From Opitutaceae bacterium (GTDB lineage Bacteria; Verrucomicrobiota; Verrucomicrobiia; Opitutales; Opitutaceae): a DNA stretch of 64,000 nt. The notes under the pieces were generated by a model. It was not told where the DNA came from and ran no database searches. It worked only from the letters and a program-made list of their open reading frames with translations. A program made the position numbers and the translations under genes. Where the stretch lies: positions 186,001 through 250,000 of the forward strand of contig JABTUS010000006.1 of NCBI GenBank assembly GCA_015075305.1, in the 5' to 3' direction. Positions 33,850-51,100 of the stretch are shown here, one piece after another. Every line of letters starts with the position of its first letter. The stretch's first letter is position 1.

Positions 33850-34626
33850 TCAAGCGGTGATGTTACTCATGTTCGCAAAGCGTGTTCGGTGGTAGTCAAG
33901 AAACGGCAGGTGCTTGTCCCGAATCCAGCGCAGACGGATATGGGGACCCAGGCCAAGGGTAGTCCGGGTGCTCAGATCGATTTTCGGGGCGAAAACGGCT
34001 TCGCCGACCTCGTTGAAGCTCATGAGGTGCCGGTCAAACAGGGCGTCAAGGTGGGCGCAGAGCAGGAACCCGTTGAACACGTTCAGCCGTTCGGCATCGG
34101 TCGCACACTCGGCCCAAGGCCTGGCGTGGCTGGCTCGTAGAACCTCGGGGATGGCTATGCCGGTTACCGCACAGGCTCCGCCCCAGTAATCCATCAGGCT
34201 CTCGCGATATATATTCTGGCCAACCCGCTGCCGCACCATCCGTTCAACTTCGGTCGCTGAAGTTGGTCCTGCAGCGGCCAACTCCTCGGCAACGGCTTTG
34301 GCATAGCGGTGAAAAGGTTCGTCCGGAAGCGTGCGGGCAATTAATGCTGCTTGGTGCAGCAGCTGACCGAGCCGGCCTTCCGAAACTGCACGAAATCCCC
34401 CGTTGGATTGGCCTGCTGCCGGTGTGAGCCGGACCAGCTCGTCTGTCAGGATGCCGGAAGAAAGGGCGACCTCCCACCCGGTGCCGCCACTGACTGCCGT
34501 TACCCGTGCTCTCGTTCCATGGAGGGCGGAAGCCAGAATCACCTGTTCAGGACTCTCCTCGACCACAACTTCCCAGCCGTGGTCATAGCCGGCTTTGCGG
34601 ATGAGGCTGCGTTCGAGGGAGTTCAT
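33850..34626 (-). CDS. HNH endonuclease-like protein
   Basis: This 258-residue protein has an N-terminal region of about 120 residues of unknown function. The HNH domain at about residues 130-210 reads RQRVGQNIYRESLMDYWGG, CAVTGI, VLRASHARPWAEC, and RLNVFNGFLLCAHLDALFDR. The His of SHARPW and the N...H of LNVFNG/CAHLDALFD are the metal-finger residues. Proteins of this layout are often next to restriction or defence genes. It ends the minus-strand island run, 10 bases after the metallopeptidase-like gene, and is probably in the same transcript. Confidence 0.75.
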   Translation of the reverse strand: MNSLERSLIRKAGYDHGWEVVVEESPEQVILASALHGTRARVTAVSGGTGWEVALSSGILTDELVRLTPAAGQSNGGFRAVSEGRLGQLLHQAALIARTLPDEPFHRYAKAVAEELAAAGPTSATEVERMVRQRVGQNIYRESLMDYWGGACAVTGIAIPEVLRASHARPWAECATDAERLNVFNGFLLCAHLDALFDRHLMSFNEVGEAVFAPKIDLSTRTTLGLGPHIRLRWIRDKHLPFLDYHRTRFANMSNITA

Positions 34627-34636
34627 TACCGGGTGA

Positions 34637-35611
34637 TTAGACGTCTGCGGGATGCAGTTCGTGATGGGCCTCGATCAACCTGCGGTTGAAATTGGTGAGC
34701 GACAACTCTCTCCAGCGCCGCACCTCAAGCATGGCCCGACGGACCGCCTCGGGGGAATATTCCCTGACCCATTTTTCATGGGTCCGATATTCCTCCGGTT
34801 GTCTGGGCAGCATGGTTTCGTATGCCTTGAAGGCTTCGGGGAACCGTTTTTCCAGACGCCGTAACACTCGGTCGGTGTAATACTGGGCCAATCCTTCCAC
34901 CACGCCTGCATCCGTGCGGGCAAAGACCGGAGCGGCCCAACGCCTGGATTCGATGTCCGCGCCCAGTTGGGTGTAAGCATGGGCGAGCTCATGTGTGAGC
35001 ACGACGATGGTCAGGTCTTCAACCTCGCAGCCAAGCCATTGGGCGGCGAGGCCAATCACGCCCCAGTAGAGCTTGATGGAGGCGCGGTTTACGTGGTGGT
35101 CTTCAACCCAATAATCCCCCGTATCAAACTCATACAAACCCAGAAAGTCACCCCTGATGGCGAGCAGCTTGTCCAACGGATCGTTTTGGTGCAGCAGCGT
35201 AAGCAATTTGTCACTCCAAGCTTCCACCGCAACCAGAGTGGATGATTCCACGTCCACCCAGCGTTCCCCTTGATGGATGTGCAACAAATCGTCGCGCAGC
35301 TTGCGCAGTCCGGCCGTGCCGGATTTTGCTTGTTCCAAAGTCGCCCGGTAGCGGCTCAGCAGCAGGATCAGTTCAAAGTCATCAGGAAACTGTACCGCCT
35401 GCAAAATCGCCGGATATCCTGGGCTGACTTCGACGGGCACCTGTGCCCCGGGGCGGTTATTTGCCGCATCTTCAGGGGTGCGCATGTGCAGCCGACATTC
35501 TGTGCGGAGGGCTTCCTGGATTACCGACCTTGTTTGATCGCGCACCCGCTTGACCCGACTCTCAACTGTGGGGGGGATGCGTCCGATCAGATCATTGAGG
35601 TAGATGGCCAT
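34637..35611 (-). CDS. HELAH metallopeptidase-like protein of the island
   Basis: This 324-residue protein carries VVLTHELAHAYTQLGAD at about residues 203-219, a gluzincin-type zinc motif (H-E-x-x-H), and about 28 residues later VEGLAQYYTD, where the Glu can be the third ligand. There is no signal peptide, so it should act in the cytosol. Helical, charged regions flank the motif. The family is not recognised beyond the zinc motif. It lies between the 185-aa gene (36 bases) and the HNH gene (10 bases). A cytosolic protease beside a nuclease and a reverse transcriptase suggests effector activation by cleavage, which is inference. Confidence 0.65.
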   Translation of the reverse strand: MAIYLNDLIGRIPPTVESRVKRVRDQTRSVIQEALRTECRLHMRTPEDAANNRPGAQVPVEVSPGYPAILQAVQFPDDFELILLLSRYRATLEQAKSGTAGLRKLRDDLLHIHQGERWVDVESSTLVAVEAWSDKLLTLLHQNDPLDKLLAIRGDFLGLYEFDTGDYWVEDHHVNRASIKLYWGVIGLAAQWLGCEVEDLTIVVLTHELAHAYTQLGADIESRRWAAPVFARTDAGVVEGLAQYYTDRVLRRLEKRFPEAFKAYETMLPRQPEEYRTHEKWVREYSPEAVRRAMLEVRRWRELSLTNFNRRLIEAHHELHPADV

Positions 35612-35647
35612 GGGGCATGTGGGGACGTGCTCGGAGCAGTAGGCTGA

Positions 35648-36205
35648 TTACAGGCGGAATATGCCGTTGTCGGCCAGAATTTCCTCAGTGGCCAAGTGCT
35701 CAATGGCCTGAAGTCTGCGGGTAAGGTATTGCCTGGCTCCGGCCAGGGTGAGCTTGGTCCCGGCGGTCTGGTAAACGGTTATCGCCGGCTCGGTGTAGCT
35801 TTCACCCTGCGGATTGCGGCAGGTGACTTCCTGGCGCACTGTGAACAATGGGATCCTGCCATCAACGGGTGCGGTGAAGCTCAAGCTTGGCACCTGCGCC
35901 TCCGATTCGGTGCCGGCGCTACGCACGAGCCCCTCGACCATATACCACTCAAAGACCTGCCATGGTTCGCTGACTCCATCGCTCGCCAGTGTATCGGGGG
36001 CCAAGTCCTGACAGACTGCATGTGAGGCAGCGATCGCCGTCAGATAGCGCGGATGGGTCTGACGCTCACGGACACCGGGAATCATGTCCACGGCGAGCTG
36101 CTCGCCGATGGGGGTGAGACTGAGGGGATCGAGGCTCGTGTTCCCGGCGCCTTCCGGGTCGTGCAGAATTAGAAGTGGCAGGCCATTGGTTGAGGACTCA
36201 CTCAC
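35648..36205 (-). CDS. Hypothetical protein of the island tail
   Basis: This 185-residue protein starts with GTG at 36205. The N-terminal third has DPLSLTPIGEQLAVDMIPGV then RERQTHPRYLTAIAASHAV. It resembles the beginning of longer island proteins I remember with a P-G-x-x-x-R-x-x-x-x-R-Y-x-x-x-x-x-x pattern, but those are several hundred residues, so this copy may be shortened. The rest has a beta-rich middle (RIPLFTVRQEVTCRNPQGE) and a helical end (GARQYLTRRLQAIEHLATEE). No catalytic motif is visible. It follows the reverse transcriptase by 23 bases and precedes the metallopeptidase-like gene. Confidence 0.55.
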   Translation of the reverse strand: MSESSTNGLPLLILHDPEGAGNTSLDPLSLTPIGEQLAVDMIPGVRERQTHPRYLTAIAASHAVCQDLAPDTLASDGVSEPWQVFEWYMVEGLVRSAGTESEAQVPSLSFTAPVDGRIPLFTVRQEVTCRNPQGESYTEPAITVYQTAGTKLTLAGARQYLTRRLQAIEHLATEEILADNGIFRL

Positions 36206-36228: not shown

Positions 36229-37230
36229 TCACTTTTTTATCTCAGCCTTGAGTTTGGTGACGTGATGACGAACCTGGCGCTTAATTTCGCGGGCATTCAT
36301 AGCTCTCGCGGCACGGTAAGCATATGTGATGAAGTTTTCGTTTTGCCGGTCGTGACCGTGGGGCTTTTGATGAAAGCGTCGGCGAATGAGGTAAGAGTAG
36401 CGAAGGAAGAGTTGGCGGGTTTTGAGGCCGGTCGGTTTCTTGCCTTTCTCAGCAGGTAGCTCAGGCTGCGCTGGGAATGTTGCACGGGTGGTCTTTTGGG
36501 GATTGATTGAGAGCTTATGTTTGGCGATTTCGGCCATGGCTAAAGTTTCGATGCTCGCGGCATCCGCAGGTGGAACGACGACCATGATGTCGTCGCAATA
36601 TCGGCGGTAGAAGCCACCAGCCGCTGACACCGCATTGTGCATTACTGCGTCAAATTCCAGCATGTAAATGTTCGACAGCAAGGCACTGATCGGCGCGCCT
36701 TGCGGTATCCCCCGGCGATTGGCTTGTTCTGGGTTCGTCCAAACCAAGCCACCGCCTCGAATCTTTTCGCGGAAAGCTTGCGGATCGCAAACACGATTGC
36801 GATGCGAACCCCGCGGCTTGGGATTATGGGGACTAATGCCGACCGCACGGAGGGCCAACGTTCGATCCACCCATCGAAACGCTGCAAGGCTCTTAAAAAC
36901 GTTGAAATGATCCTCGGGCAAGCGGTTCGTTCCGAGGGTAGTCTGCCAGCGCAGCTTGATGAGATTGTGGTCGAGACGGTCGAAAAATTTCTCGATATCC
37001 AAGCCAATGGCCACGCAAGGGCGATGGGCGCGGATAAACTCGAACGCCTCGTTGGCAAATGAGATGTTATTGCGGCCATTCCCACCGGCACGCCGAAACG
37101 CAATGATGCAGTCGCCAATACCACGGCTTGCCAGCTCTGTTTCGAACTTCTCCGCAAGTAGCTGTCCATAGTGACCGTAGATGGCGGCATCCAGATGTGC
37201 CGCCAATTTGATCGGGCGTTTCTTGTCCTT
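36229..37230 (-). pseudogene. drt2: Drt2-like antiviral reverse transcriptase, main part (split by IS)
   Basis: This is the C-terminal 333 residues of a group II-like, stand-alone reverse transcriptase. RT motifs are clear: GLDIEKFFDRLDH (catalytic D, residue 141 of the rebuilt protein), the RRGIPQGAPISALLSNIYM block, and the active-site YCDD (274-277) in RRYCDDIMVVV. The segments KKRPIKLAAHLDAAIYGHY, NISFANEAFEFI and LPEDHFNVFKSL match my memory of the Drt2 (UG2) defence RT family. It ends with a basic helix. The frame is cut at 37230 by an ISL3-type element, and an in-frame TGA lies just inside the element. The rest of the gene is at 38550-38738. Without excision it lacks the conserved N-terminal region and is probably inactive. 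Confidence 0.75.
37223..37230. repeat. Target-site duplication, left copy
   Basis: TTGTCCTT directly outside the left end of the ISL3 element, identical to 38542-38549. Confidence 0.9.
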
Positions 37231-37253
37231 GGTTCTTCACGTTTGGTTGTGGG
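37231..37253. repeat. Left terminal inverted repeat of the ISL3 element
   Basis: It pairs with 38519-38541: the outer six bases (GGTTCT/AGAACC), an inner CACG/CGTG and the innermost GTGGG region match, about 16 of 23 positions. Confidence 0.75.
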
Positions 37254-37281
37254 AAAGGGTCTGGGCGGTTAATGTGTGAGG

Positions 37282-38625
37282 ATGGAAGAAACCGTCAACG
37301 AGCATTACCGCCAGCTGCTGAAACTCGAGAAGCCTTGGAGGGTGACGAACGTGGAAAAGGATCTGGAACGGGAGCGGGTCACGATCTGCGTGGCGTGGCC
37401 GGAGCGGACACCGGTGGCATGCCCCGAGTGCGGGAAGCCGTGCCCGGTGTACGACCGGTTGCCGGAGAGGACGTGGCGGCACCTGAGTGTGATGCAATAC
37501 CTTCTGGAACTGCGGTGCGGGGTACCGCGGTGCGCCTGCCCGGAGCACGGGGTGAAGACGGTGACGGTGCCGTGGGCAGAGCCGGGCTCGCGCTTCACGT
37601 TCCACTTTGAAGCCTTTGCGGTGGCAGTGATCGCGGCCTGTCGGTCGCTGACGCAGGCCGCAGATTTGCTGCGACTGCATTGGGACAGCGTCCAACGGCT
37701 GATCGAGCGGGCCGTGGAGCGGGGCCTGGCTCGACGGAGCACGGAGGGACTCCGTCGAGTCGGCCTCGATGAGAAGAGTTTTCTGCGAGGCCAAAGTTAC
37801 GTTTCGCTGATGACCGACCTCGGCCAGTCGCGGGTGCTGGACGTGGTGCTTGGACGGGACACCGAGCAGGCGATTGCCCTGTGGAAGTGCCTGCCGGAAG
37901 CGCAGCGGTTGAAAGTGGAGGCCGCCGCCATGGACATGGGGGCGAACTTTGCGGCTGCCACCCGGATCGCCGCTCCGCAGGCTGCGATCGTCCATGACCG
38001 TTTCCATGTCTCCAAGCACCTCAACGAGGCGGTCGACCAGACCCGCCGGCAGGAGGCGGCCAAGCTGGCCGAGAACGGCGACGAGACTCTCAAGCAGACT
38101 CGGTATCTTTGGCTGCATGGCACCGTGCCGGAGAAGCATCAGGCCAGCTTCGCCGAGCTGCTGGAAATGAACCTGAAGACCTCCCGGGCCTGGTTGTACA
38201 AGGAGCAGATGGTGGAGTTCTGGAGCCAGTCGGACGCGGCCAGCGGCGAACGCTTCTTCTCCCAGTGGTACCGCACCGTCATGCGCAGCCGTTTGCCGAA
38301 GGTGATGGCCGTGGCCCGCACCCTCAAAAGCCATCTGGTGAATCTTCTGACGTACTTCCAGCACCCGATCACCAATGCCCTCACCGAGGGCTTCAACTCC
38401 AAGATCCAAGCCATCAAGGCCGATGCCCGCGGCTTCCGCCGCTTCGAAAACTACCGCGCCCGCATCCTCTTTTTCTGCGGCAAGCTCGACCTCGCGCCCC
38501 TTCTTCCCTCAGGCGCTACCCACACGATTCCGTGGAGAACCTTGTCCTTGCGGACAAACTTCGGTGTCGCTCCTTTCTCTTTCTGCATCTTTGGCGTTGC
38601 TATGGTGAAACCAAGGAACGGGTAG
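37282..38625 (+). CDS. ISL3-family transposase
   Basis: The frame is 449 residues from a GTG at 37276 or 447 from the ATG at 37282. The N-terminal zinc ribbon (CPECGKPCPVYDRLPERTW; CACPEHG) and the ISL3 core are present: VGLDEKSFLRGQSYVSLMTD, AAAMDMGANF, IVHDRFHVSKHLNEAVDQTR, and the C-terminal NALTEGFNSKIQAIK with RFRRFENYRARILFFCGKL-like helices. The last 28 residues are read through the right terminal repeat and into the interrupted reverse transcriptase gene on its antisense strand. The stop codon at 38623-38625 is therefore supplied by the target, not by the element. Confidence 0.9.
   Translation: MEETVNEHYRQLLKLEKPWRVTNVEKDLERERVTICVAWPERTPVACPECGKPCPVYDRLPERTWRHLSVMQYLLELRCGVPRCACPEHGVKTVTVPWAEPGSRFTFHFEAFAVAVIAACRSLTQAADLLRLHWDSVQRLIERAVERGLARRSTEGLRRVGLDEKSFLRGQSYVSLMTDLGQSRVLDVVLGRDTEQAIALWKCLPEAQRLKVEAAAMDMGANFAAATRIAAPQAAIVHDRFHVSKHLNEAVDQTRRQEAAKLAENGDETLKQTRYLWLHGTVPEKHQASFAELLEMNLKTSRAWLYKEQMVEFWSQSDAASGERFFSQWYRTVMRSRLPKVMAVARTLKSHLVNLLTYFQHPITNALTEGFNSKIQAIKADARGFRRFENYRARILFFCGKLDLAPLLPSGATHTIPWRTLSLRTNFGVAPFSFCIFGVAMVKPRNG
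38519..38541. repeat. Right terminal inverted repeat of the ISL3 element
   Basis: It is the imperfect reverse complement of 37231-37253 and is translated as part of the transposase frame. Confidence 0.75.
38542..38549. repeat. Target-site duplication, right copy
   Basis: TTGTCCTT directly outside the right end of the ISL3 element, identical to 37223-37230. On the minus strand it encodes the residues KD of the reverse transcriptase segment FVRKDKKRP. Confidence 0.9.
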
Positions 38626-38738
38626 AACGCATGCCGTGCAACACGTGTGGGGTCAGTAGCCAGTGCCTCGGCGACTCTCGCCGAGGGAGGCGGATCGAAG
38701 TGGAGGTATGTTCTCGGTTTATGGGTGTAGGCCGGCAC
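38550..38738 (-). pseudogene. drt2: Drt2-like reverse transcriptase, N-terminal part
   Basis: The minus strand encodes HKPRTYLHFDPP, then ARVAEALATDPTRVARHAF, YPFLGF and KFVR up to the ISL3 target duplication. The order Y-x-H-F-D, then D-P-x-x-V-x-x-H-x-F-Y-P-F is what I remember for the Drt2 N-terminus, and the next residues (KDKKRPIKLAAHLD) are found beyond the element. Joining 38738-38550 to 37230-36229 gives 1191 bases, exactly 397 codons including the stop, with the seam on a codon boundary. The start is assumed to be GTG at 38738; another GTG at 38777 is possible. No strong ribosome-binding site is visible. Confidence 0.72.
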
Positions 38739-39080
38739 GCTGATGTTGGGGAAATTCTCAACTGGGGAGGGTTTCACCGGTTTAGGGTGAAATGGGATCT
38801 TGGTAGCAGCAGTCCGTCGTCCCACTCCCCACCTCGAAGGTCGGTCAAGCCGACCATGACCGGGTTTCCCCGGCGCTGCGGTTGTTATGATGGTGTATTC
38901 CATCCTTAGAACTATGAACATCAGACTAAATATCCGATGCTCCATCGAAGCTAAGCAGCCCGGCGAAATGCACGGAATGCGTGACTTCGCTGTTCACTCC
39001 CTCGGGTCTGTTTCGCCCCGAGGCGTTACCCGCCGGAGCGGGAAATTCAAAGAACCGGATCTTGCTCCCGCTAAAGTAAA
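38739..39080 (-). ncRNA. Candidate DRT2 template RNA upstream of the RT
   Basis: This 342-base gap precedes the RT gene, where DRT2 systems carry the structured RNA their RT copies. At least seven perfect hairpins are visible (plus-strand coordinates): CCCGC/GCGGG 39029-39042; CCTCGGG/CCCGAGG 39000-39023; GCGAA with inner CACG/CGTG and TTCGC 38963-38990; CGATG/CATCG 38935-38947; GGTCGG/CCGACC 38839-38855; CCGGG-GAAA-CCCGG in RNA sense at 38860-38873; TTTCACC/GGTGAAA 38772-38792. No independent gene fits. The frame in phase with the RT has no stop for 85 codons upstream of 38738, back to a TGA at 38994-38996, which would suit a DRT2 template that encodes an endless frame. RNA ends are not determined. 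Confidence 0.6.
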
Positions 39081-40001
39081 CTATGCTCTAGACTTATCTC
39101 TCAGATCGACCAATTCAAATTTCGTCCGCGCAGGACCCGAAGGAGGGGTAATGGCGGTCCGGTTGAGAGTTGCCTCGCACGGACTGTTTGTCAGCAAATT
39201 CATTTCAGCTACCTGCTCTTCTGTTAGTTGCTCACCCAGCTCGCCACTGATGGAAATATCGTCGTCTGTTTTGAAATCGAAGCGCCATGTATCAAGGGTG
39301 GCTCCACGGAATATCCCGGAACAATTTACTTGTTTGGTCTCAGTATGAGTGGTGGTTGCCCGGGTTTTGGCTTGTAACAGGCGTTCGGCACTTAACTCGC
39401 AACGTAAGTCGCCACTTTCAATGCGTAGTGATGCCCCCGACTTACTCGCAACTTCCAAGAAATCGCGAAGGCGGGGCAGAACTCTCGGTGAAACATGGTC
39501 CAGCGCATTGGCAAAGTCCTCATCAGACTTACCGGCGGATTCCACGATTTGGGTAAGCCTGGCCAGCGTCGTGGAGAGTTGTTGGGCCTGCACCCAGTCC
39601 TCCACGTTTGGCTGGGATAGCTCAAGCCCGAAGGATCCGCGGGGAAGGGCTGTGAGGAACAATCGAGCCTCATCTTCATTTTTCCGCGGTCCACGGCGCC
39701 CCACCGTTCCATGCCGTAGGGTGGAAAACTCTGACTTCACCATTTCCTGAAAGGGTTTGATAATATCGGCGACGAGTGAGGCATCGATACCTTGGCTCCC
39801 AAGCACTGAATCACCTCCTGCAAAAAACAGGACGGTGCGAGGTGAAGGAAGTCCCGCCGGCGCCGCTTTAAGTTCATCTTCCAGGCTGGCTTTACGCAGT
39901 TGCCAGGCGCGCGCCATAAAGGAACCCTCGCCGTGGAGTTTGGCAAGGTGGTCGGCCTCAATGACCTGACGGCTGATGAACTCTCGGGTAGTGCGGCTCA
40001 T
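39081..40001 (-). CDS. Partner protein of the DUF6932-like gene
   Basis: This 306-residue cytosolic protein overlaps the DUF6932-like gene by 4 bases (start inside its stop), so the two are translationally coupled. The N-terminus is helical and charged (FISRQVIEADHLAKLHGEG). The middle has GTVGRRGPRKNEDEARLFLT and GSFGLELSQPN, and the end is a beta-rich region (CSGIFRGATLDTWRFDFKT; DDDISISGELGEQLTEEQV) that looks like a small RNA- or DNA-binding barrel. I do not recognise the family but remember it as a frequent neighbour of DUF6932 genes. It is followed by the structured RNA region and the RT. Confidence 0.65.
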   Translation of the reverse strand: MSRTTREFISRQVIEADHLAKLHGEGSFMARAWQLRKASLEDELKAAPAGLPSPRTVLFFAGGDSVLGSQGIDASLVADIIKPFQEMVKSEFSTLRHGTVGRRGPRKNEDEARLFLTALPRGSFGLELSQPNVEDWVQAQQLSTTLARLTQIVESAGKSDEDFANALDHVSPRVLPRLRDFLEVASKSGASLRIESGDLRCELSAERLLQAKTRATTTHTETKQVNCSGIFRGATLDTWRFDFKTDDDISISGELGEQLTEEQVAEMNLLTNSPCEATLNRTAITPPSGPARTKFELVDLRDKSRA

Positions 40002-40555
40002 GAGAAATTCGCATTCAAGTCCTGACGAGCTTGGTCATCATCTGCCGGGGAGCCGAGAGGAATCTTTAGCATGCCTTTCCAGACTCCATCGCGCCGATGG
40101 GTGAAAAGCTGGATCCAGTAACGGGTATTTTCCACCGCTCCCCACGGAGACTCGTCCGCCCAGAGTGGAAAGTGATCCAAGTGGTAGGTGCGTTTGCTTT
40201 CGGCAGGGTCAATGAAGGCCGGGAAGGCGCCTGCCAATTGGTTAAGGAAAGCGGAGTCGTAACCCCAGAAGACGGTGAGCACATCGAGATCTTGAGGGTT
40301 CCGGTTTTCCAGTTTTTCGATGTCTTCGAGAAAACTACCGTCGAGCCACTGGTAACCTATTGTCAGGCCGCGCAGTTGGAGTTTGTGCCGAAAATCCAGG
40401 AAACCGCGCAGGATGGAGGCACGTGCGGCTGAAGTTGCATAGCGGGCTACCAAATCGATGGATGTGCATTCGTAGGGAGACAAATCCGCCCGCGAGATGG
40501 CATTGCCGAGATGGGGCGGCAATACGTTGTTGGTGTCGAAAGCAGGAATAGGCAT
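39998..40555 (-). CDS. DUF6932-like (nucleotidyltransferase-fold) protein
   Basis: This 185-residue protein begins PIPAFDTNNVLPPHLGNA, a start I associate with DUF6932. The core has LQLRGLTIGYQWLDGSFLED then NPQDLDVLTVFWGYD, where the G-S-F-x-E-D plus D-x-D-V arrangement is like the G-S/D-x-D motif of minimal nucleotidyltransferases. If active it could transfer a nucleotide to a target, and with the coupled 306-aa partner may form a toxin-antitoxin-like or signalling pair. It follows the methyltransferase by 39 bases. The function is inferred from fold features only. Confidence 0.6.
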   Translation of the reverse strand: MPIPAFDTNNVLPPHLGNAISRADLSPYECTSIDLVARYATSAARASILRGFLDFRHKLQLRGLTIGYQWLDGSFLEDIEKLENRNPQDLDVLTVFWGYDSAFLNQLAGAFPAFIDPAESKRTYHLDHFPLWADESPWGAVENTRYWIQLFTHRRDGVWKGMLKIPLGSPADDDQARQDLNANFS

Positions 40556-40594: not shown

Positions 40595-43500
40595 TTATGC
40601 CAGTGCGTCCCAGGCTTCGAGGACGAGGCGTTGGGTGCGGTATTCGCCGTGGGCTTTGAGGTCGTTGGCTTTGAGGCCGCGGAAGGTTTCGGTGGGGTAG
40701 TCGGGGCCGTGGGTGTCGGCGGGGTCGAGGATGTAGCGCAGTTCGTCACGGGTGAGGCCGTAGAGCCGGGCGTAGTAGGCGTCGAGTTCGGCGCGGACTT
40801 GAGCGCGGCGGACGGGATCGTAGGCAAAGGGCGGACCGTGGTGACCGAGATCGGCGGCCCAGGGGGCGAGATCATGAGAGGTGTAGGTCAGTTCCAGCAC
40901 CCGGGGGACGATAAAGGTCAGATCGGCTTCGGTGTAGGCGTCGGGAGTGAGGATGGGGAATTGTTTAAAATAATGATAGGTAAGCGAGGTTCCGCCTACT
41001 TTTTGTCTAGCGACGTAGTCTAGGCAAAGTGCATCGAGATTCCCAAGTAATACTGCGGCGAGTTTAGCGCTTGTTCCCGCGGGGAAATGGAGGAGAGGCA
41101 TTTTATGTCCAACCGCCGCCCTCGGCACGACGCTGGCGATGACGGTGCGTTCGTCGGTTGCTCGACAGATGTCGCGCCAGCCCATGAGCCAGCGGGGGCT
41201 GCGGCCGTCAAGGATGGTGCGGGCGGCGACGGTGAGGGGCTGTTCGGTGCGCAGGACGGCGAGTTCATCGTCGGTGAGTGCGGGCCAGCCGCGGGCTTCG
41301 GCGAGGGCTTTGTCCTTGAGCCAGTCTTCTTGACGCGCGGGCAGGGCCTCGAAGCGCGGTCCACCGGCGGCGATAACACGCTGACGGGGTGACGCGGTGA
41401 AGAAGCCGGCGAGGGCGTCGTCTTCGTGGGCGGCCTCGATCCATGTGGCCAAGGCGGCGAGGAGGGCATCCTCATCCTGCGCATCGTAGGCTTGGGTGAC
41501 ACAGCGGGGGGCGCGGGCGATGCGGGCGAGCACGTGGTGCTCCGCCACCCAGTAGCGCGGCTGGATGGTAAAGTCCGGGTTGGCCTTCTGCGTTTCGCTC
41601 ACATCGTCCGTGACGGGTTCGCCCTTGCCTGCATCCCAGCGGTAGGTGGCCCAACGATGGTCGAACTGATGCACCATCTTCGCCTCGTAAAGCGGCAGCG
41701 CTCCCGATTCCGGTTGGTCGAGGAAGAGACCCGAGTCGTTGGCCATATGGAACATTGCCGAGAACGAAATCCCCCACGGATTCTGCTCCGGTGCGTCGCC
41801 CCTGGCTTCCTCGATGAGCACCGGCACGCGGCGGTAGATTTTCTTGGTCAACTCGGCGTCCGCTTGGGAGCGGAAGACCGGGCAGGTGCGGGTGTTGGGG
41901 TTGATGAGTCGAAAATCGTCGCGGGTGAGCGTGAAGCGGCGGTGCTCGTCAGCGAGCTGCTCGGTCTGAGTCAGGTAAAATGCAAAATGCGCGGCCTCGG
42001 CAGTACCCAGGGTGAGGAGGCAAAACTTCATTCGACTATCGACAGCGGGAAAGACCTTCTCGCGGTTTTCAAAATCATAGAGGCTGGCAAGCTTCCCGTT
42101 TTCGGCGAGGTGGGCGAAGAAAGCCTTGGTGGAATCGTCGGTGGCGATGCCGGTGGGCACGATGAAGCCTGCGCGGCCTGACTGGTGAGTGAGCTGAGTG
42201 ATGGTCTCGGCAAACAGGGCATAGGTGTTGACGTCGCCTACACCCGTGAGCGGGTAGCGACCGCCGTCCTTGCCATCCACGTGAGCGAAGAGGCTGATGG
42301 CCTCGGCCAAACGCCGGGCGAAGACGAATTCGCGATAAAGGCTCAGCTCCGCGGGTGCGCCTCCGTGGGGAATGGGAGTCTGGTGGAGATGATTAACCAG
42401 GCTGCCCTCGGCGAGCCACTGGATGCGCTGACCGCGCTCGGCCTTGTTCTTGGCTTCGGCGATGAGGGGTTCGCGGCTGGCAAAGAACTCCTCTTCCTGG
42501 AGCTTGATGCGCTCCCACGGCGGATTGCCGAGCACGCAATCGAAGCGGCCCCGCGCGAATACGCGGATGAAGGCGAGCGGCCAGTGGAGAACCCGGCCTT
42601 CGCGACAAAGCGCGCGGGAGGCGTCGAGAACCGCTGAAGGGACAGCGGAGCCCTGACGGGGGAAAAGCAGATCGGCCAACGTGCGGGTGGTTGGGCAGCG
42701 GGCTGCATCGTCCTCGGTGGCCTTGGGGGTGAGAAAAGCGGCAATGAGCAGATCGGCGGCTTGGGCGAGCGGGCTTTCCCGGGCGATGGCGAGAAACGCC
42801 TCGTAAGCGCTCGCCTTGGCCTCGACCTCGGTCGGCGTGGTTTCCGGCCGGGCCTCCAGTTGATCCAATTCGGCCAGCAGGTCGGCGGTGCCGGCCTCGG
42901 AGAACAGATCGGTGTCCTTCTGGCGCTGCTCGTAGGTTTTGAGGGCCGCACGGTTTTCGGCGGCAAGCGTTTTGATGACGGCCTTGTTGTCGCCCGTGAG
43001 CGCCTTGAACGCATCGGCGGGAACGCCACGCCGGAGTTGGGCAAAGTCGGTGAGGCCGAGCAGGGCGTCACCGCACACCAGGTGGGAATCGAGGAACGAG
43101 AGCGGCTGACCGGGCTCGTAACCTTCGAGCCAGAGGGCGGTGCGGGCCAGCTCCAGCGCCATGGGGTTGCGATCCACGCCATGGATGCAGCGGGCGATGA
43201 CTTCGCGCAGGGCATGGCGGTAGTCGGCGGGCGTGACCGCGCCGTCGATGGCGCGAACTTCCGCGAGTTTCTCCGCCAGGCGACGGGCGGCCGCGAGGAG
43301 GAAGTGCCCGGAGCCGCAGGCCGGGTCGATGACTGAAATGGAAAGCAAGGCGCCGGCGGGATCGGAAGGCGCGGCGGCCAGCTTTTGCGCGATGACGGGA
43401 TCGAGGGCGCTGTCGAGCAACTCCTGCACGAGGCTGTCGGGCGTGTAGTAGCTGCCGGAGGTCTTGCGGGCGTTGCCGTCGGTCGAGCCGGCCTCGGTGA

Positions 43501-44893
43501 GCCCGACAAAGCCGAATCGACGGGCGGGCAAATCGACGGTGGGCACGAGTTCGAGCAGGCTTTCGTAAACAGAACCGAGTTCCTCGGGACCCATGTTGCG
43601 GTAGTCGATGGCGGCGAGGGAGCCGCCGAGTTTTGACCAGCGCAGTTCGCGCATGGCGGCGAGCAGGGCGCGGTTTTCCAGTTTGGCAGCGTCGAGATCG
43701 GGGCACTGTTTGGGCGAAAACAGACCGCCAAGGGCGGGCAGCGCAAGGCGGGGCTCGCCCTGGGTGAGGCTGCGGAAGACGACTTGAACGGAAGTCCAAA
43801 GATCGTGGTGACGGTCGAAGCCGGCCCGACGGAGGGCGCGGTCGCGCAGCCGGCGGAAAGCGTAGCCCTGCGCATAGGTGTCGCGGGCCTGCCGGGCCTC
43901 GGGACGGTCGTCGCGCACGTGGAGCAGGCCGCGCTCCTCGACGGTGAAGAGAAAGAGACAGCGGTAAACGAGGCGAAGGAGCTGTTGGAAATAGGCGTCC
44001 TTGCTCAATTCGCCCGATTGAAGGCGCTGCCGCAGAGGCTCATTGGCGGTATGGGCGAGAAAGCCGGTGCCGAGGGCGAGGAGCGCCTCAGTGACGCCGG
44101 TGCGCAGGCCGTCGCGCACGCGCTCGCCCTGGGCCTCGCCCTCGCGCTTCCAGGCCTGCCAGACGCTGTCGTCTTCCGCGACGTCGGCGGTGCCGGCCCG
44201 GCTCGCATGGAAAAGCCGCCAGACGGCGGCGAAGTCGGAATAGCGTTTATCCGTAAGGATGAGGTCGAGGTCGGCTTCGAGGAAGGCCGGCCGCGTGAGC
44301 GTATCGGCATCACGCACCAGGCGGAGCTGACGGCCGTTCGTGATGACGGCCCAGGTGCAGGTGGTGGAGGCGTTGAGAAATTGCTGCGCCAGCTGATAGG
44401 CCGAAACTTTGCGCCGACCGGAGCCGTGAATGGCGAAGCGTTCGTCGGTCGTGTCGAGATCGAGCGTGTGAGGGGCAACAATGACTGGCACCTGCCCACC
44501 GCAGGCGACGGCCGTGACGGGATAAGCGCGATCGGCGAGTTCCACCGGAGTCGCGCTGATGGTGAGATCGGCGTAGCCCAGCGCATCGCGCAGCAGCGCG
44601 GTGACAAAACCGAGCGTGGCGCGGCTGGCATCCACATCCTGACGGGCGCGCGCTTGCTGGAAGTTCTTGTGCAGGGCGGACGCGATGCGGAACGCGCGGC
44701 CCTGTTCATCGACGAGTGAGAGCCCCTTGGGCAGGCGGTAGTCGGCCGCCTTCTGGGCGGTGTGCTCACCGCGGGCGGCTTTTTCGAGCACTGCCGGCAC
44801 AAAGAGCCCGCCCTCCAGGCGGAGGGTATCGAAGATGAAGGAATCGGAGGAGCGGCGGGCCACGGGTTGCTTGCTATGGGCGAGACAGTCCAC
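40595..44893 (-). CDS. Large Eco57I/DrmMI-type N6-adenine DNA methyltransferase
   Basis: This 1432-residue protein has a long N-terminal part, an SAM-binding motif DPACGSGHFLLAAARRLAE at about residue 528 preceded by GSYYTPDSLVQELLD, and the catalytic motif IV NPPWERIKL at about residue 788, as in gamma-class N6-adenine methylases of the Eco57I/type IIG kind. DRNPMALELARTALWLEG is the motif II region. A specificity-like C-terminal region contains GGTSLTYHYFKQFPILTP, as in type IIG enzymes. No PD-(D/E)XK nuclease motif was identified by eye at the N-terminus. With the helicase genes upstream it should mark host DNA as self. It overlaps the GIY-YIG-like gene by 20 bases. Confidence 0.82.
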   Translation of the reverse strand: MDCLAHSKQPVARRSSDSFIFDTLRLEGGLFVPAVLEKAARGEHTAQKAADYRLPKGLSLVDEQGRAFRIASALHKNFQQARARQDVDASRATLGFVTALLRDALGYADLTISATPVELADRAYPVTAVACGGQVPVIVAPHTLDLDTTDERFAIHGSGRRKVSAYQLAQQFLNASTTCTWAVITNGRQLRLVRDADTLTRPAFLEADLDLILTDKRYSDFAAVWRLFHASRAGTADVAEDDSVWQAWKREGEAQGERVRDGLRTGVTEALLALGTGFLAHTANEPLRQRLQSGELSKDAYFQQLLRLVYRCLFLFTVEERGLLHVRDDRPEARQARDTYAQGYAFRRLRDRALRRAGFDRHHDLWTSVQVVFRSLTQGEPRLALPALGGLFSPKQCPDLDAAKLENRALLAAMRELRWSKLGGSLAAIDYRNMGPEELGSVYESLLELVPTVDLPARRFGFVGLTEAGSTDGNARKTSGSYYTPDSLVQELLDSALDPVIAQKLAAAPSDPAGALLSISVIDPACGSGHFLLAAARRLAEKLAEVRAIDGAVTPADYRHALREVIARCIHGVDRNPMALELARTALWLEGYEPGQPLSFLDSHLVCGDALLGLTDFAQLRRGVPADAFKALTGDNKAVIKTLAAENRAALKTYEQRQKDTDLFSEAGTADLLAELDQLEARPETTPTEVEAKASAYEAFLAIARESPLAQAADLLIAAFLTPKATEDDAARCPTTRTLADLLFPRQGSAVPSAVLDASRALCREGRVLHWPLAFIRVFARGRFDCVLGNPPWERIKLQEEEFFASREPLIAEAKNKAERGQRIQWLAEGSLVNHLHQTPIPHGGAPAELSLYREFVFARRLAEAISLFAHVDGKDGGRYPLTGVGDVNTYALFAETITQLTHQSGRAGFIVPTGIATDDSTKAFFAHLAENGKLASLYDFENREKVFPAVDSRMKFCLLTLGTAEAAHFAFYLTQTEQLADEHRRFTLTRDDFRLINPNTRTCPVFRSQADAELTKKIYRRVPVLIEEARGDAPEQNPWGISFSAMFHMANDSGLFLDQPESGALPLYEAKMVHQFDHRWATYRWDAGKGEPVTDDVSETQKANPDFTIQPRYWVAEHHVLARIARAPRCVTQAYDAQDEDALLAALATWIEAAHEDDALAGFFTASPRQRVIAAGGPRFEALPARQEDWLKDKALAEARGWPALTDDELAVLRTEQPLTVAARTILDGRSPRWLMGWRDICRATDERTVIASVVPRAAVGHKMPLLHFPAGTSAKLAAVLLGNLDALCLDYVARQKVGGTSLTYHYFKQFPILTPDAYTEADLTFIVPRVLELTYTSHDLAPWAADLGHHGPPFAYDPVRRAQVRAELDAYYARLYGLTRDELRYILDPADTHGPDYPTETFRGLKANDLKAHGEYRTQRLVLEAWDALA

Positions 44894-45380
44894 GATGCGC
44901 TTTTAATCGCGTGAAGTAAGCCATGATTGCATCCGCAGATTTCTCGTGCCGTGGCGCAGGTTTCGAGAAATGGATTTCGGTTCGGTATACGGGCCAGGCA
45001 CCGGCCTGTCGGATGCGGAAAACAACTTCCGCCTCGATGCACTCGGCGTCTTCGCTGGACCATGGATTTTCAGGAGGCCCCATGAAGACGTGCAGGAAGG
45101 ACTCGGTCATGCGTTGTTTGCAACGATAACCGGCGAAGCCTTTGGCGCGATTGTGAGGTGTGCAACGGAATGCCTGGCCCACCCGCGAGCCGATGCTCTG
45201 GGACGCTTTGTCCACATAGAAAGGCCACTTGGCATCGGCGAAAATGTAAACCTTACCCGAACCTTTTGCGCTCAGGGGATTGATGAAGCCGTTGGTTTTC
45301 ACCCAATTTTCACCGTCTCTCCTCCAGCGTGCAGTGATGGCAGTCCGGGTGAAGTTAAGATAGCAGGTTTCGTGAACCAT
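44874..45380 (-). CDS. GIY-YIG-like protein
   Basis: This 168-residue protein has the order KVYIFADAKWPFYVDKAS (43-60), R66 in SRVGQAFR and a late acidic residue in ECIEAEVVFRIRQ (113-125), then VYRTEIHFSKP. The pattern matches a GIY-YIG nuclease layout (V-Y-I-x then Y-V-G-K, an Arg, a Glu), but the usual Gly of Y-V-G is Asp here (YVDKAS), which may weaken activity. It lies between the SNF2 helicase (14 bases) and the methyltransferase (20-base overlap), so it belongs to this module. Confidence 0.6.
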   Translation of the reverse strand: MVHETCYLNFTRTAITARWRRDGENWVKTNGFINPLSAKGSGKVYIFADAKWPFYVDKASQSIGSRVGQAFRCTPHNRAKGFAGYRCKQRMTESFLHVFMGPPENPWSSEDAECIEAEVVFRIRQAGAWPVYRTEIHFSKPAPRHEKSADAIMAYFTRLKAHRGLSRP

Positions 45381-45394
45381 GAGCGAACTGAGCT

Positions 45395-48199
45395 TCAGAG
45401 ACTGTCGGGCAGCAGCACATAGACCCCAATGACGTCCACCGGCAGTGAAGGGGTGACGGCGTAGCGGCCTTGGTCGTCGGCGGCTGCGCGCACGCGGCGA
45501 TGATCCTGCAACAGCGCGTCGGCCCGGATATTGGCGAGGTTTTCGAGCCGGTTGGTGCTGGCCCGAAGCAGATCGAGTGCGTGGTTGATTTCACGCTGGG
45601 CCGCCTCGGCGCTGAGATTGCCGCTGGGCTTGACCTCCAGCAGACGGATCGCGCCGGCATCATCGATCCAACGGGGCAGGGCACGTCCTTCGAGCCCAAT
45701 GGCCACGGTTTCCTCCGCCATGAGCGTGCGCGTTTTCCCACGTTTCTGGCTGGATAATTGGTGACGGAGGCGAAGCAGGAACAGGGTGGTGACAATCTTC
45801 ACATCCGCCGTGACGGTCGCCGCACAGCGCGCGGCCAAGGGGGAATCGCTTTGGAGGGCCTCTTCCAGCAAATAATCGGCCAAAACGGATACCAGCGGGT
45901 GGGTGCGATGGATGAACAGGGCGCGCGGGTCGGGCGGATAGTGAAAATCAACCAGCAAATCGCGGTTGATTTCCTCCTGGGCGAGACGCTCCCGCAAAGC
46001 GGCCGGCAGATGCCTGGGCAGGAAGCGCCAGGCCTGACGCGCAGGTTCGAGCGGGGCATCGAGCCGGGCGCAGGCCGTCTGGACGAAACGGGCAATGGCG
46101 TTCTCGTCGCCGATCAAGTCGAGCTGACGCCGCCATTCGGGCAGGACCTCCTCGGGCTTGATGCGGCGCTGGGCGAACACTGTGCGGTTGGCCTTGGCCT
46201 TCTCGCGCGCATCCTCCCATGCGGTCGTGAGAGGCTTGAGATCCTCGCCGAGCAAGTTCTCAAAGCCGAAATCAAGCTGAAGCTCATGACGGTTGGCGCG
46301 GCTACGCTTGAGCAGAGCGGCCTTGATCATCGCTTGGTTTATGCGCTCGGCGTCCTGCGGGAGGGGCACAAGCACGCCAAGGTCCTGGCGAATGGCCTCG
46401 GCCTTGCGGAGGATGACGTTGAGGATGAAGCCGTCCACGGGGTTGTCCTGGCCGTAAAGCATGGTGCAGCGAACCTCCGTGGCTTTTTGGCCAAAACGAT
46501 CCACCCGGCCCTCGCGCTGTTCGTGGCGGGTGGGATTCCAGGCAAGGTCGTAGTGCACCACGGCCGTGTAGCCGTGCTGGAGGTTTACGCCTTCGGAGAG
46601 GCAGTCGGTCGCCACGAGGATGGGTTGCTCGGCTTCGGCCAAGGCGACGACGCGCAACTCGCGTTCTTCGGGGGTCAGTTCACCGGTGACGGCATCCACG
46701 GTTGCGGTCTTGAAGTGGTCGCGCAGGTGCGCCGCCACATAGTGCGCGGTAGCAAGGTAGCGGCAAAACACGACCGGGCGGGCACCCACGGCCAGCAACT
46801 CCCCGAGGTGTTCACAGAGGGCCTTGAGCTTGGGGTCTCCCTTCTGGCCGGCCAAGGAACGCGCCTTGGCAATGAGAGATGTGAGCTGTGCGGTCTCGGC
46901 GATGGCTCCGGCCGGCTCCAGGTCGTTGGAGGAGAGATCGGTTTCATCCCCATCCTGAAGACGGGCTTCGTCGGCCAGAGCCGCCATTTCCTCCAAGGTG
47001 CCGGTGAGACGGGTGGTGAGGGCGCGCTCGGCCGCCGCAGGGGAGGAGCCGACACAACGCAAGAGGGCCAGCGTGGCATACCAGATCATGTGACGACCGG
47101 CTCCACCGGCAGCCTCTGTTTGCTCGGCGAGGCCCACGCAATAGTCCTGCACCGCATCAAAAAACTCGCCCCAAGCACCCGACAGCCGATAGGTGACTTC
47201 GGCCGTGAGTCGGCGGGGAAAGACGCTGACATCATGCCATTCCTCGACGTCCTTGCGCCGCCGCTGCACAAAATGAAGGGCCAGATCCTCGCGCAGTTTC
47301 TGTCGGGTGGCACCATCAGCATCGGCCAGACGGGAAAATTCCGGGCGAAGCAGCGACAGAAGATTGTGGAATGCGCCGTCGTCGCCGGAGTGCGGCGTGG
47401 CCGTGAGCAGGATCAGATGACGTTCGACGTCGCCGGCAAGCTGCTGCAGCAGCTCAAAGCGCAATTGGCGCACCTGACCGCCGGTGGAGCAACTGTGCGC
47501 CTCGTCCACGATGATGCATTCCGGGGCAATCGAAAGAAAATGGGCGCGGTGGCGGTCGCTCTTGATGTAATCGAGACTGACCACCACGACCGGATGGTGT
47601 TCGAACAGGGAGACACCTGGCGGGAGATTCCTTTCCAGCCGGGATACACTGGCGGAGGTCAGGGCGACGGCGTGCAGATGGAAGTGACGCGCGAGTTCAC
47701 TGCACCACTGGTCAACCAGGTGTGGCGGGCAGAGCACGGCGAAACGGGCGATTTCGCTTCGGTCGTGCAGTTCCCGCACAATCAGGCCGGCTTCGATGGT
47801 CTTGCCGATGCCGACATCGTCCGCGATGAGGAGCCGCACAGTGGGCTGGCGCAAGGCCATGAGCAATGGCACGAGTTGGTAGGCCCGGGGTTCGACGGCA
47901 ATATTGGCGAATGACCGAAAGGGCCCGGCTCCGGCGCGCAACTTGAGCTGGAGGGCGTCACGCAACAGGAGCGCGGCAGTGTGGTTGCCTTGATGCTTCG
48001 GGTCAGGCTCGGGAAAAGTGGCGGCAGTCGGGAGGGTGGGCTCCAACTCGGGCACCAGCGTGGTGATATCCTCTTCGGACCCACCGAGGGGCCGGAGCCG
48101 AAGCAAAGATTCGGAAGAGCCGGGTTGAACCACCCACTCGCGATCGCGAGCCCGCACCAAGGCGCCAGGGTTAAAGGTAGAAACGGCAGCGGAACTCAT
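45395..48199 (-). CDS. SNF2-type helicase, DrmD-like
   Basis: This 934-residue DNA-dependent ATPase has Walker A in [20 protein letters not shown] (about residue 128), the DEAH box in [14 protein letters not shown] (about 231), [19 protein letters not shown] and motif VI in [14 protein letters not shown] (about 565). The N-terminus [17 protein letters not shown] and [20 protein letters not shown] are recognisable from the helicase of DISARM-like modules (DrmD). It overlaps the upstream 1764-aa helicase gene by 4 bases (ATGA), so the two are made together. The C-terminal third may contact partner proteins. Confidence 0.85.
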
Positions 48200-51100
48200 G
48201 TGGAGGGAGACGGCGGACCGAACAGGATCGGATATTTGGAGAATGTTTCAGGCCAAGCCGCAGGATCCGAAGGAAAGACCACGATCGCGTAGGCCTGGTC
48301 TGCGGCGTAAGCCTGAAGGTCAGGCGATGGTGAGGTGAGAAAAACCAAGGTGCGTGCCGACCGATAGAGCGCATCCACGGAGCCGAGTCCATTGGACAGA
48401 GCAAAACGCACAGCCTCAGGCTGACGATGGCCGAGCTGGTTTAGGGTGGCCAGCCAACCGTCCAATGAATCAGCAGTCGTGGCACCGGGTGTATCGGCCG
48501 CAGAGGTCCTGGTTGGCCGCACCGTGGCCTGGGCCATCTGGACCAGCAGTTCCAAGACGGCCGGATCACTGCGATTGATGTGCTCGTGGTCCGGCTGATT
48601 GTAATAGGAGAGCAGGCACTGATAGCAGCCGGCCTCGCAAATACGTTCGCCGGTGGGCCGGCGGCGCTCGACCGCGGCGAGGCTGCCCGCAGTGAGCGAA
48701 CCCGAAACCTGGCTCAGATCGAAATGGAGGATTTCGAGCGCCTGTCGGGCCACCACCGCCACTTGCTCGGTGCTCTGGGCCAAACGGCTGAGCACGCCAG
48801 CCCCGCCTTCGGCCGCCTCGTAGAAGAGGATGGATTTGCGGTGCTTGGCATCGGGCAAGGGCTCCACGACCAATTCGGATTCCTCGATCTGAAAAGTCTG
48901 AGTAATGCCGCGCTTGAGGGCGGCTTGAAGCGTCGCCATGGCGGAGTCGGTTAGCATTTTTGCCGGCGTAAGAATGAGGATATTGCGGTGATCCTCGACA
49001 AAAGGCACGATGCGCTGCGTGGGCTCTTTGTTGTCCTTCTCCTCGGGCGTTTCGTCCGGGTCGGTGGCTTCGTCAGGGTTATCCTGTTTGCTCCAGCGCC
49101 CGTTGATTGGGTTGATGATGAAGCCGAGCTGCTTTTTGTCTTTGCGCCGCCGCCAACCCTTGTTGATCCGCCAAATGCGGGCGGCTGGAGAGTAGGCGAG
49201 CCGGGCAATCACCCCGGTGGCATCGGGCGCGATCACCTCAGAATCGTGTCGCTCCACAAAGCCGCCCGGGCCGGGCATGAAGCGGTAGGTGGTCTGTAAT
49301 TCGTAGCCCTGGCGCTGCCGCTCTTCTTCATTCACGGAAATGCGCTCCTGGGCGACGGTTTCCACGTTCTCGATGCGATAGAGGGTGTTGATACGCCCCT
49401 CGTCGCCGAGCGGGGTATGGCAATGCTCGCAGACATCGGCCAGCGGCTCGGGCCTGGCTTCATCCCCCAGATGGCCGTAGCCGCACGCGGTGCAAACACG
49501 CGCACTGATGGTCGGAAGCTGCGAGTCCGATGAGATGGAGTCGGAGCCGCTGATGTTGAGCTTGGCCCGATCCACCCGAAACATGCGCCCGTCGTGGTAG
49601 ATGAGGCTGCGCGGCCCAAACTCTGACAGCGCAAGAAAACGCGGACGACTGACCATGCTGCCCTGATCATCCTTGCCATTGCGCTTGCGGCCCGTGGCGG
49701 GCACCCACGCCATGAGCGGAAGCCGGGGGAAATTATACCCGGGAAGAAAACCCTGACTGGCGAGGTAACGGAAAGTATAGAAATCGTTGTTCAGGCTGTT
49801 GCCGGTCTTCAGCAGCAGGGTGAACTGGTTCTTGGCATCCATGTAGCGCCGGTTGGCATTCTCACGATCCTTGGCGCTGGTGGAGGGGCTGCGGATAATT
49901 TTGTCGGCCGCGGCCATCTGGTTTTGGACCCCATCATAAAGCGTGCGCCAACGGTCAAAGGCGGTGGCAAATTCCTTGGCGCTCGCGGCAATCACCTGCT
50001 CGGCAAAGTGGGGTCCATACCAGGGGGCCCGTTCAGGTGTCAGCTCGCTCTCAATCTGGTTCAGGACTCGCTTGGCCTGCTCCAGCGCCCGGGTGCCGGC
50101 AGCGGGATCAACGAGCTGGGACTGCAAAACCGGACGAATCGGTTTCGCCGGCTGTTCAAGATCCAGCAAGGGAGCGATGCTCGTCTCCAATTCGTATTCA
50201 ACCTGCGCAAGCCAAACGGCATGAAGATGGCTCTCAACGAGATTGCGGTTGGCGAGTTCCAGCGTGGGCGCCCGGACAATGCCATGCACCATGTCGGTGG
50301 AATGGGCAAAGAACCACTGGTCGTGCGGACTCATCGCGGCGCAATAGGTGACAACCAGAGCCGCCTGCCCGGCCCGGCCCGCGCGTCCGCTGCGCTGGGC
50401 ATAGTTCGCCGGCGTGGGCGGGATATTGCGCAGATAAACGGTGCTCAGCGAAGAGATATCCACCCCGAGTTCCATCGTCGGTGAACAGAAAAGCACCGGC
50501 AAGGGTGGCAGCGGACCTTTGTTTTCAGCGCTGTCCTGCCAATCCTTGAGGTCGCGTGCGTTGCGGCGGAACCGCTGTTCGAGCGCCTTGCGTTTCTCTG
50601 CATCCACTTGGGCCGTGTGCTCGTTGGCCACAAAGTCGAACAAGGGGTGCTCGGGGTGGGTGAGCACTTCAGTGATGGTCAGGTAGAGCTGACGGAAGAA
50701 CTGATTGGCTGGAGTGCCTTCATTTGGAGGATCCAAGGTGAGGGTCCAGCGGAGGGCGGAGGACTTGAGCGTCCAACCCACCAGCTTTTGATTGTCGAGG
50801 CTCTGACTTTGGACGTAGCCGTGCGTCTCGGCAGCCCTCAGAAAAGCCCGGCAGAGATCGACCCATTCTGGGTTCTTCAGTTGGGCGGCTTGTTCCGCAC
50901 ACGCTGACGACTTCCAAAAGGGTGCGAATTTCAATTGCCGCACGAGACGTGAACCCGGACCGCCACCGATCAGGTCGAAGCGTTTGCGCCCCTTGGTGTC
51001 GGGACGTTTATCGAGCAGAAAATAACAGGTGGTGGCCAGCCGCTCATCATTGCCGAACGACCAGCGCTCGGTGAGATAGTTGTAGATTTTGTTCCTGATG

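Follow-up and report, generated by a model that had tools for sequence, protein, structure and literature searches.

A divergent DRT2-type RNA gene beside an interrupted reverse transcriptase gene in an Opitutaceae bacterium

Within the window (the whole 64-kb stretch of Opitutaceae DNA analysed here), a gap of 342 nt (38739-39080) separates the stop codon of an upstream gene (39081) from the GTG start (38738-38736) of a reverse transcriptase (RT) gene on the minus strand. Is this gap the template RNA of a DRT2 system, as a reading of the sequence alone had proposed, and could the system still work? The strong structure ascribed to the gap is borne out: on the RT strand it folds at -128.2 kcal/mol, against -109.9 +/- 5.9 kcal/mol for dinucleotide shuffles, better than all 100 of them (z -3.1), with nine hairpin loops in the centroid fold, and both the hairpin CCGGG-GAAA-CCCGG and the double stem at 38963-38990 that had been singled out are present. 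A second folding run gave z -2.8 for the RT strand and -3.7 for the opposite strand (0/60 shuffles as good for either); because both strands beat their shuffles, fold energy cannot choose between them. The 54 nt preceding the 5′ handle described below fold ordinarily (z -0.6).

RT relatives were drawn from contigs of genomes (the best 80 of at least 528), 15 viral-contig loci, 29 plasmid records (six fetched) and whole genomes. The closest among these are L018 (49%; OX638348.1, an Opitutaceae MAG), L114 (same family as the window), L019, L020 and L021 (records assigned to Verrucomicrobia or Opitutales) and L022 (recorded as Microbacteriaceae, with a sequence resembling the others). All six have the RNA design and endless antisense frame of the window, and their RT ORFs, as read, carry no IS, unlike that of the window. 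The thumb segment is found in five of the six, L022 ending at a contig edge before it; in L021 a short stretch following the FFD motif is missing. Alignment A1 at E 1e-40 matched 3/372 genomes of the order and 2/387 of the phylum, the window's own genome being included in both counts, and the C-terminal half of the RT at E 1e-30 matched only the window's own among 384 genomes of the class. Phage records yielded three weak matches (31-37%), and in viral contigs scanned with the RT N-terminus six stretches fitted a pattern, none of them a relative. In L116 an RT-like ORF of 468 aa contains the catalytic motif, and the RNA model R1 introduced below has no match there.

The reading frame in register with the RT, offered originally as a sign of a template, is indeed open for 85 codons upstream of the GTG, but 71/1000 shuffles of the gap equal this length and the same frame is open for just 3-7 codons in 4/4 relatives; the opening is therefore attributed to chance. 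Nor is it evidence for a template, since the endless frame described below runs on the opposite strand. These 85 codons would also suit a long structured 5′ leader, with the RT perhaps starting upstream in the open frame, a reading made very improbable by the short frames of the relatives, by RT homology that starts at the GTG (residue 1 aligns with residues 4-7 of the L018, L019 and L114 frames) and by the covariation of the gap structure.

That structure can be assigned by comparison. The features of the RNA are:

38752-39024, minus strand: DRT2-type ncRNA gene, predicted extent (~273 nt), from the R1 match (3′ scaffold) and the covarying 5′ handle
39000-39023, minus strand: 5′ handle hairpin, stem CCTCGGG / CCCGAGG, loop GCGAAACAGA
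38752-38888, minus strand: 3′ scaffold domain, two hairpins and a branched stem (R1 70.0 bits, E 8e-15)
38875-38879, minus strand: pseudoknot arm 1, GCAGC
38806-38810, minus strand: pseudoknot arm 2, GCTGC

Both ends of the RNA were inferred from the Klebsiella RNA, in which the template occupies positions 29-148 of 280 nt (PMC12039810). Covariance model R1 describes the 3′ scaffold and was built from L018, L019, L020 and L022, with the window held out. In the 64-kb window the runner-up to 38752-38888 scores 5.9 bits. Over the window and 79 loci, a subset of those fetched, R1 had eight matches with E no higher than 1, namely its four source loci, the window, L114 (85.0 bits, likewise held out) and, weakly, L074 and L021 (18.6 bits, E 0.068 for the latter). 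The copy in the window is the sole match in the whole genome, and 3/252 genomes of the family are positive, each with the match adjoining a DRT2 RT (the window's genome, that of L114, and G1079, whose match coordinates are those of the L018 record).

In the alignment of the eight matches, which is biased towards the R1 structure, 27/34 scaffold pairs (pseudoknot included) have changes on both sides, against a shuffle mean of 12.6 (0/500 shuffles reach 27), and 92.4% of alignment cells pair, against 33-59% when slid. Helix 3 is the weakest (71.9% paired). The pseudoknot GCAGC/GCTGC, absent from the model, is 97.1% paired, with two pairs doubly changed (GCAGU/ACUGC in L022, GCGGC/GCCGC in L074), one mismatch in L018 and a gap in L021. 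In the 5′ handle 95.2% of cells are paired and 6/7 pairs are changed on both sides among six sequences. Comparative folding across homologous loci, which had been suggested as a check, thus finds covarying stems in handle, pseudoknot and scaffold alike; the window carries a structured upstream RNA with both a handle and a pseudoknotted 3′ scaffold, and the proposal of a DRT2-type RNA beside a DRT2 RT is upheld by the held-out match together with this covariation. Immediately 5′ of the handle lies another hairpin (CCCGC/GCGGG, 39029-39042), with TCTGC/GCAGA at the same place in L018; it may add a further 5′ stem to the Opitutaceae RNA.

The published-model search proposed for the gap went the other way. 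Rfam found nothing over the whole window, the gathering threshold of RT-12 (RF03016) not being reached, and within 38600-39200 no family, RT-12 included, gave a match with E of 1 or below. This would fit a structure arising by chance or belonging to something unrelated, such as a terminator of the upstream gene or another RNA class; such an origin is hardly credible given the held-out R1 match at E 8e-15, the DRT2 RT adjoining it and the covariation. The relatives' short frames, the covariation and the held-out match are the grounds for rejecting the gap as RT leader or terminator.

RT-12 matches 17/27 DRT2 loci tested (3/7 and 14/20) and is unmatched in L029 and in all nine verrucomicrobial-type loci given (L018-L022, L024-L026 and L114). 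Its RNA occupies the same position relative to the RT as that of the window, and it was this position at the loci here that led us to assign RT-12 to DRT2; the name did not occur in any of the papers listed by a literature search. In L074 and L062, both matched by RT-12 at 74.6 bits and weakly by R1 (19.9 bits, E 0.034, and 11.6 bits, E 0.43, respectively), the coordinates of the two matches agree within 1 nt, suggesting that R1 and RT-12 represent one and the same domain. Three further verrucomicrobial DRT2 loci, L024-L026, have partly conserved upstream DNA with neither an R1 nor an RT-12 match and with no Neo candidate in the scan described below; this DNA is perhaps another RNA type.

The RNA in the window is DRT2-type, from a divergent verrucomicrobial branch of a known system. 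The earlier idea of a new Verrucomicrobiota-like lineage therefore stands as to the divergence and the verrucomicrobial affinity, but the design is shared by six relatives. For divergent DRT2 clades, Tang et al. (PMC11100668) describe a predicted RNA and a Neo that is harder to annotate. DRT2 in Verrucomicrobiota was not met among the papers listed by a search of main texts, and published tables may hold such loci; the passages of PMC11124354 on DRTs and on Verrucomicrobiota place no DRT2 within the phylum.

Within the RNA, the template and the gene it would create were assigned as follows:

38991-38993, minus strand: ACA-1, template 5′ end, placed by comparison with relatives
38883-38885, minus strand: ACA-2, immediately 3′ of the template, placed by comparison with relatives
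38886-38993, minus strand: inferred template, 108 nt (36 codons)
38914-38916, plus strand: predicted Neo start codon, repeat unit MNIRLNIRCSIEAKQPGEMHGMRDFAVMMVYSILRT
38981-38986, plus strand: -35-like GTGACT, which reaches the -10 only through concatenation
38896-38901, plus strand: -10-like TATTCC, weak, 17 nt from the -35 across the repeat junction

From the start of ACA-2 to the pseudoknot arm the distance is 6 nt. With a period of 108, the reverse complement of the concatemer has one stop-free frame among three, so the template is, as anticipated, a multiple of three and free of stops; the frame itself is found on the other strand, not on the one proposed by the sequence-only reading. The new encoded peptide foreseen there corresponds to the repeat unit predicted from the 108-nt template. 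In the six relatives the templates are 111, 111, 123, 126, 126 and 129 nt, each with one stop-free frame, and repeats beyond ACA are ACGGA, CTT, ACCA, ATTTG and only AC. The repeats of the window, L114 and L022 were placed first by alignment and junction spacing. Periods of L018-L021 came from a scan demanding a multiple of three, so their divisibility by three is not independent evidence. The Neo frame of the window would be open by chance in 0.11 of shuffled templates (any frame, 0.25), and 151 repeat-and-period combinations within the 600 nt examined in the window also give an open frame; an open frame plus a repeat is by itself not telling, and the assignment of the jump sites is based on how the window compares with its relatives.

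The junction promoter of the window, GTGACT-17-TATTCC, agrees with the sigma-70-type consensus at 7/12 positions and is weak; corresponding values in the relatives are 9-10/12 at 17 nt (L019-L022), 10 at 19 nt (L114) and 9 at 16 nt (L018). Five of the six relatives have TTGACT as their -35; L021 has TTTACT and the window GTGACT. A Neo scan combining junction promoter, repeat and endless frame was given 95 loci, of which eight without an anchor were dropped; the sample was 87 loci plus the window, with L105 and L108-L112 left out. Scores of at least 9 were reached by 63/88 upstream stretches, against 10/704 shuffles. The window and L018 were without a match in this automatic promoter-plus-Neo scan.

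The Neo unit begins MN in the window and five relatives, and MS at the corresponding ATG in L020. That of the window has a hydropathy near zero and is positively charged; it and the L114 unit have the lowest hydrophobicity and the strongest positive charge among 33 compared (the seven here and 26 hand-picked from those scoring at least 10 in the Neo scan). These properties could be the result of decay in the window; L114 keeps a full-length RT ORF.

The enzyme that would copy this template is represented by the following features:

38542-38738, minus strand: DRT2 RT N-terminal part, from the GTG start to the IS (PADLOC Drt2 5.7e-13, 38520-38945)
36229-37222, minus strand: DRT2 RT C-terminal part with YCDD (PADLOC Drt2 3.4e-101)
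37231-38541, plus strand: ISL3-family insertion sequence, 1311 bp, interrupting the RT gene
37223-37230: 8-bp target-site duplication, copy 1
38542-38549: 8-bp target-site duplication, copy 2
37276-38625, plus strand: ISL3-family transposase ORF, extending beyond the IS end in this copy

Drt2 is the top PADLOC family for both halves and also the top NCBIfam family, the halves scoring 334 and 44 bits, each under the whole-protein cut-off of 390. The N-terminal part is 67% identical to L018 over 55 aa, and the top PDB match of the C-terminal half is 9c0i, taken to be the Klebsiella pneumoniae DRT2 protein (425 aa, named Drt2). The RT beside the gap is thus DRT2-type, as first proposed; its interruption by an ISL3 element and the loss of thumb residues had been missed.

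The IS encodes an ISL3 transposase (DDE_Tnp_ISL3, 2e-71) and has inverted ends GGTTCTYCACG and an 8-bp target duplication, a length typical of ISL3. Nine more matches to it occur elsewhere in the genome; eight are 92-98% identical, and the ninth, a short fragment, is 86% identical. The L005 copy is likewise flanked by an 8-bp duplication; the same IS was not found in plasmid records. In the interrupting copy the transposase ORF has 422 codons inside the IS, then continues through the inverted end and into RT sequence, for a total of 449 aa. Copies such as L005 differ by one base in the inverted end, and the L009 copy has the same base as the interrupting copy.

The C-terminal part also lacks ~50 thumb residues, with a junction near 36447 whose exact point depends on the alignment (51 residues missing relative to L018 and L114, 49 to L019, 58 to L020). 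In the phmmer alignment, residues 242 and 259 of the window RT pair with residues 306 and 373 of 9c0i, and residues 307-372 of the latter face just 16 window residues. R336, R342 and R346 of 9c0i fall in a segment starting LQYLGF that is absent from the window RT; triple alanine mutation of these residues in Klebsiella DRT2 abolished reverse transcription (PMC12596737).

Judged from its sequence, the RT is disabled twice, by the IS insertion and independently by the thumb deletion, both known from one assembly. Because the gene is split and the protein is short of ~50 thumb residues, the system is most likely inactive, and we infer that this DRT2 copy is dead and that RT function was lost recently. 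Activity might persist if the IS were excised, or if the separate RT pieces cooperated, and the thumb deletion were tolerated: the RNA, the template frame and the catalytic YCDD are intact, and by arithmetic on their lengths the frames flanking the IS are mutually in phase. Excision would not, however, restore the thumb stretch, which is kept in 7/7 aligned relatives and holds the positions that are jointly essential in Klebsiella DRT2 (PMC12596737), and no second DRT2 RT was found in the genome, where two other matches to the C-terminal half reach 33-35% over ~90 residues. Continued activity is accordingly improbable.

The broken RT sets the window apart from the DRT2 system of Klebsiella pneumoniae as described in PMC12039810, PMC11100668 and PMC12596737. 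The two have in common a UG2-type RT with YCDD, an upstream RNA of ~270-280 nt with a 5′ handle, a template between two ACA motifs, a 5-bp pseudoknot (155-159 with 250-254 in the Klebsiella RNA; PMC12596737), a stop-free frame antisense to the RNA, as reported for Neo in PMC12039810, a repeat divisible by three, and -35-like and -10-like elements joined at the junction. The distance from ACA-2 to the pseudoknot is six nt in both, the Klebsiella ACA-2 being put at 149 because the template ends at 148. In the window, in contrast, the repeat is 108 nt rather than 120, the -35 is GTGACT and the -10 weak, the Neo unit is near zero in hydropathy and positively charged, and the RT is IS-split and ~50 thumb residues short.

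Upstream of the RNA and on the same strand lies a defence cluster (40595-53490) encoding a DruE-like helicase (1764 aa), a DpdE/DrmD-like helicase (934 aa) and a DrmMI / type IIG-like methyltransferase (1432 aa). Closer to the RNA, 39998-40555 encodes a DUF6932 protein and 39081-40001 a product weakly matching AbiEi; downstream of the RT (33850-36205) are an HNH_2 nuclease and two proteins of 185 and 324 aa, neither with a PADLOC, Pfam or NCBIfam match. Three of the relatives likewise adjoin defence genes: in L114 (28-4105) a type I specificity subunit precedes the RNA and a DUF3644 (PDC-S19) protein follows the RT, L019 (663-5834) has restriction-enzyme-like and AAA/OLD-like proteins nearby, and L020 (4179-5837) an HmaB-like methylase.

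From the homology, structure, open frame, IS insertion and thumb deletion computed here, it is very probable that the gap is an ncRNA gene belonging to a DRT2 phage-defence system, that its RT is split and thumb-deleted, and that the system is most likely inactive, leaving the template RNA orphaned. In intact members, by analogy with Klebsiella DRT2, the pseudoknotted 3′ scaffold and 5′ handle would anchor the RNA on the RT, which would copy the template between the two short repeats over and over; the resulting tandem DNA would restore a promoter at every junction, and the concatemer would encode an endless toxic protein, Neo, halting infected cells. In the window the RNA and the Neo frame look sound and the RT appears lost, which would leave a stranded template. 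A claim to a working new system in this genome is to be dropped and shifted to the intact relatives.

A broader combination, in which a verrucomicrobial branch of its own has a scaffold outside Rfam, template jumping that tolerates non-ACA repeats and, in the window and L114, a short, positively charged Neo that may stop cells by a route unlike that of the hydrophobic Neo of most other loci, is put forward tentatively and is on balance doubtful as a whole. If it were true, the window would be a natural RT knock-out with its toxin template left readable. DRT2 defence by a gene made from RNA, with a readable Neo frame, is extended here to a branch not recognised by the public RNA model, and the relatives with a full-length RT, L018 and L114, are test cases for variation in jumping and in Neo chemistry. 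The window suggests a route by which such systems may die: loss of the enzyme leaves behind a toxin template that can still be read but is harmless on its own.
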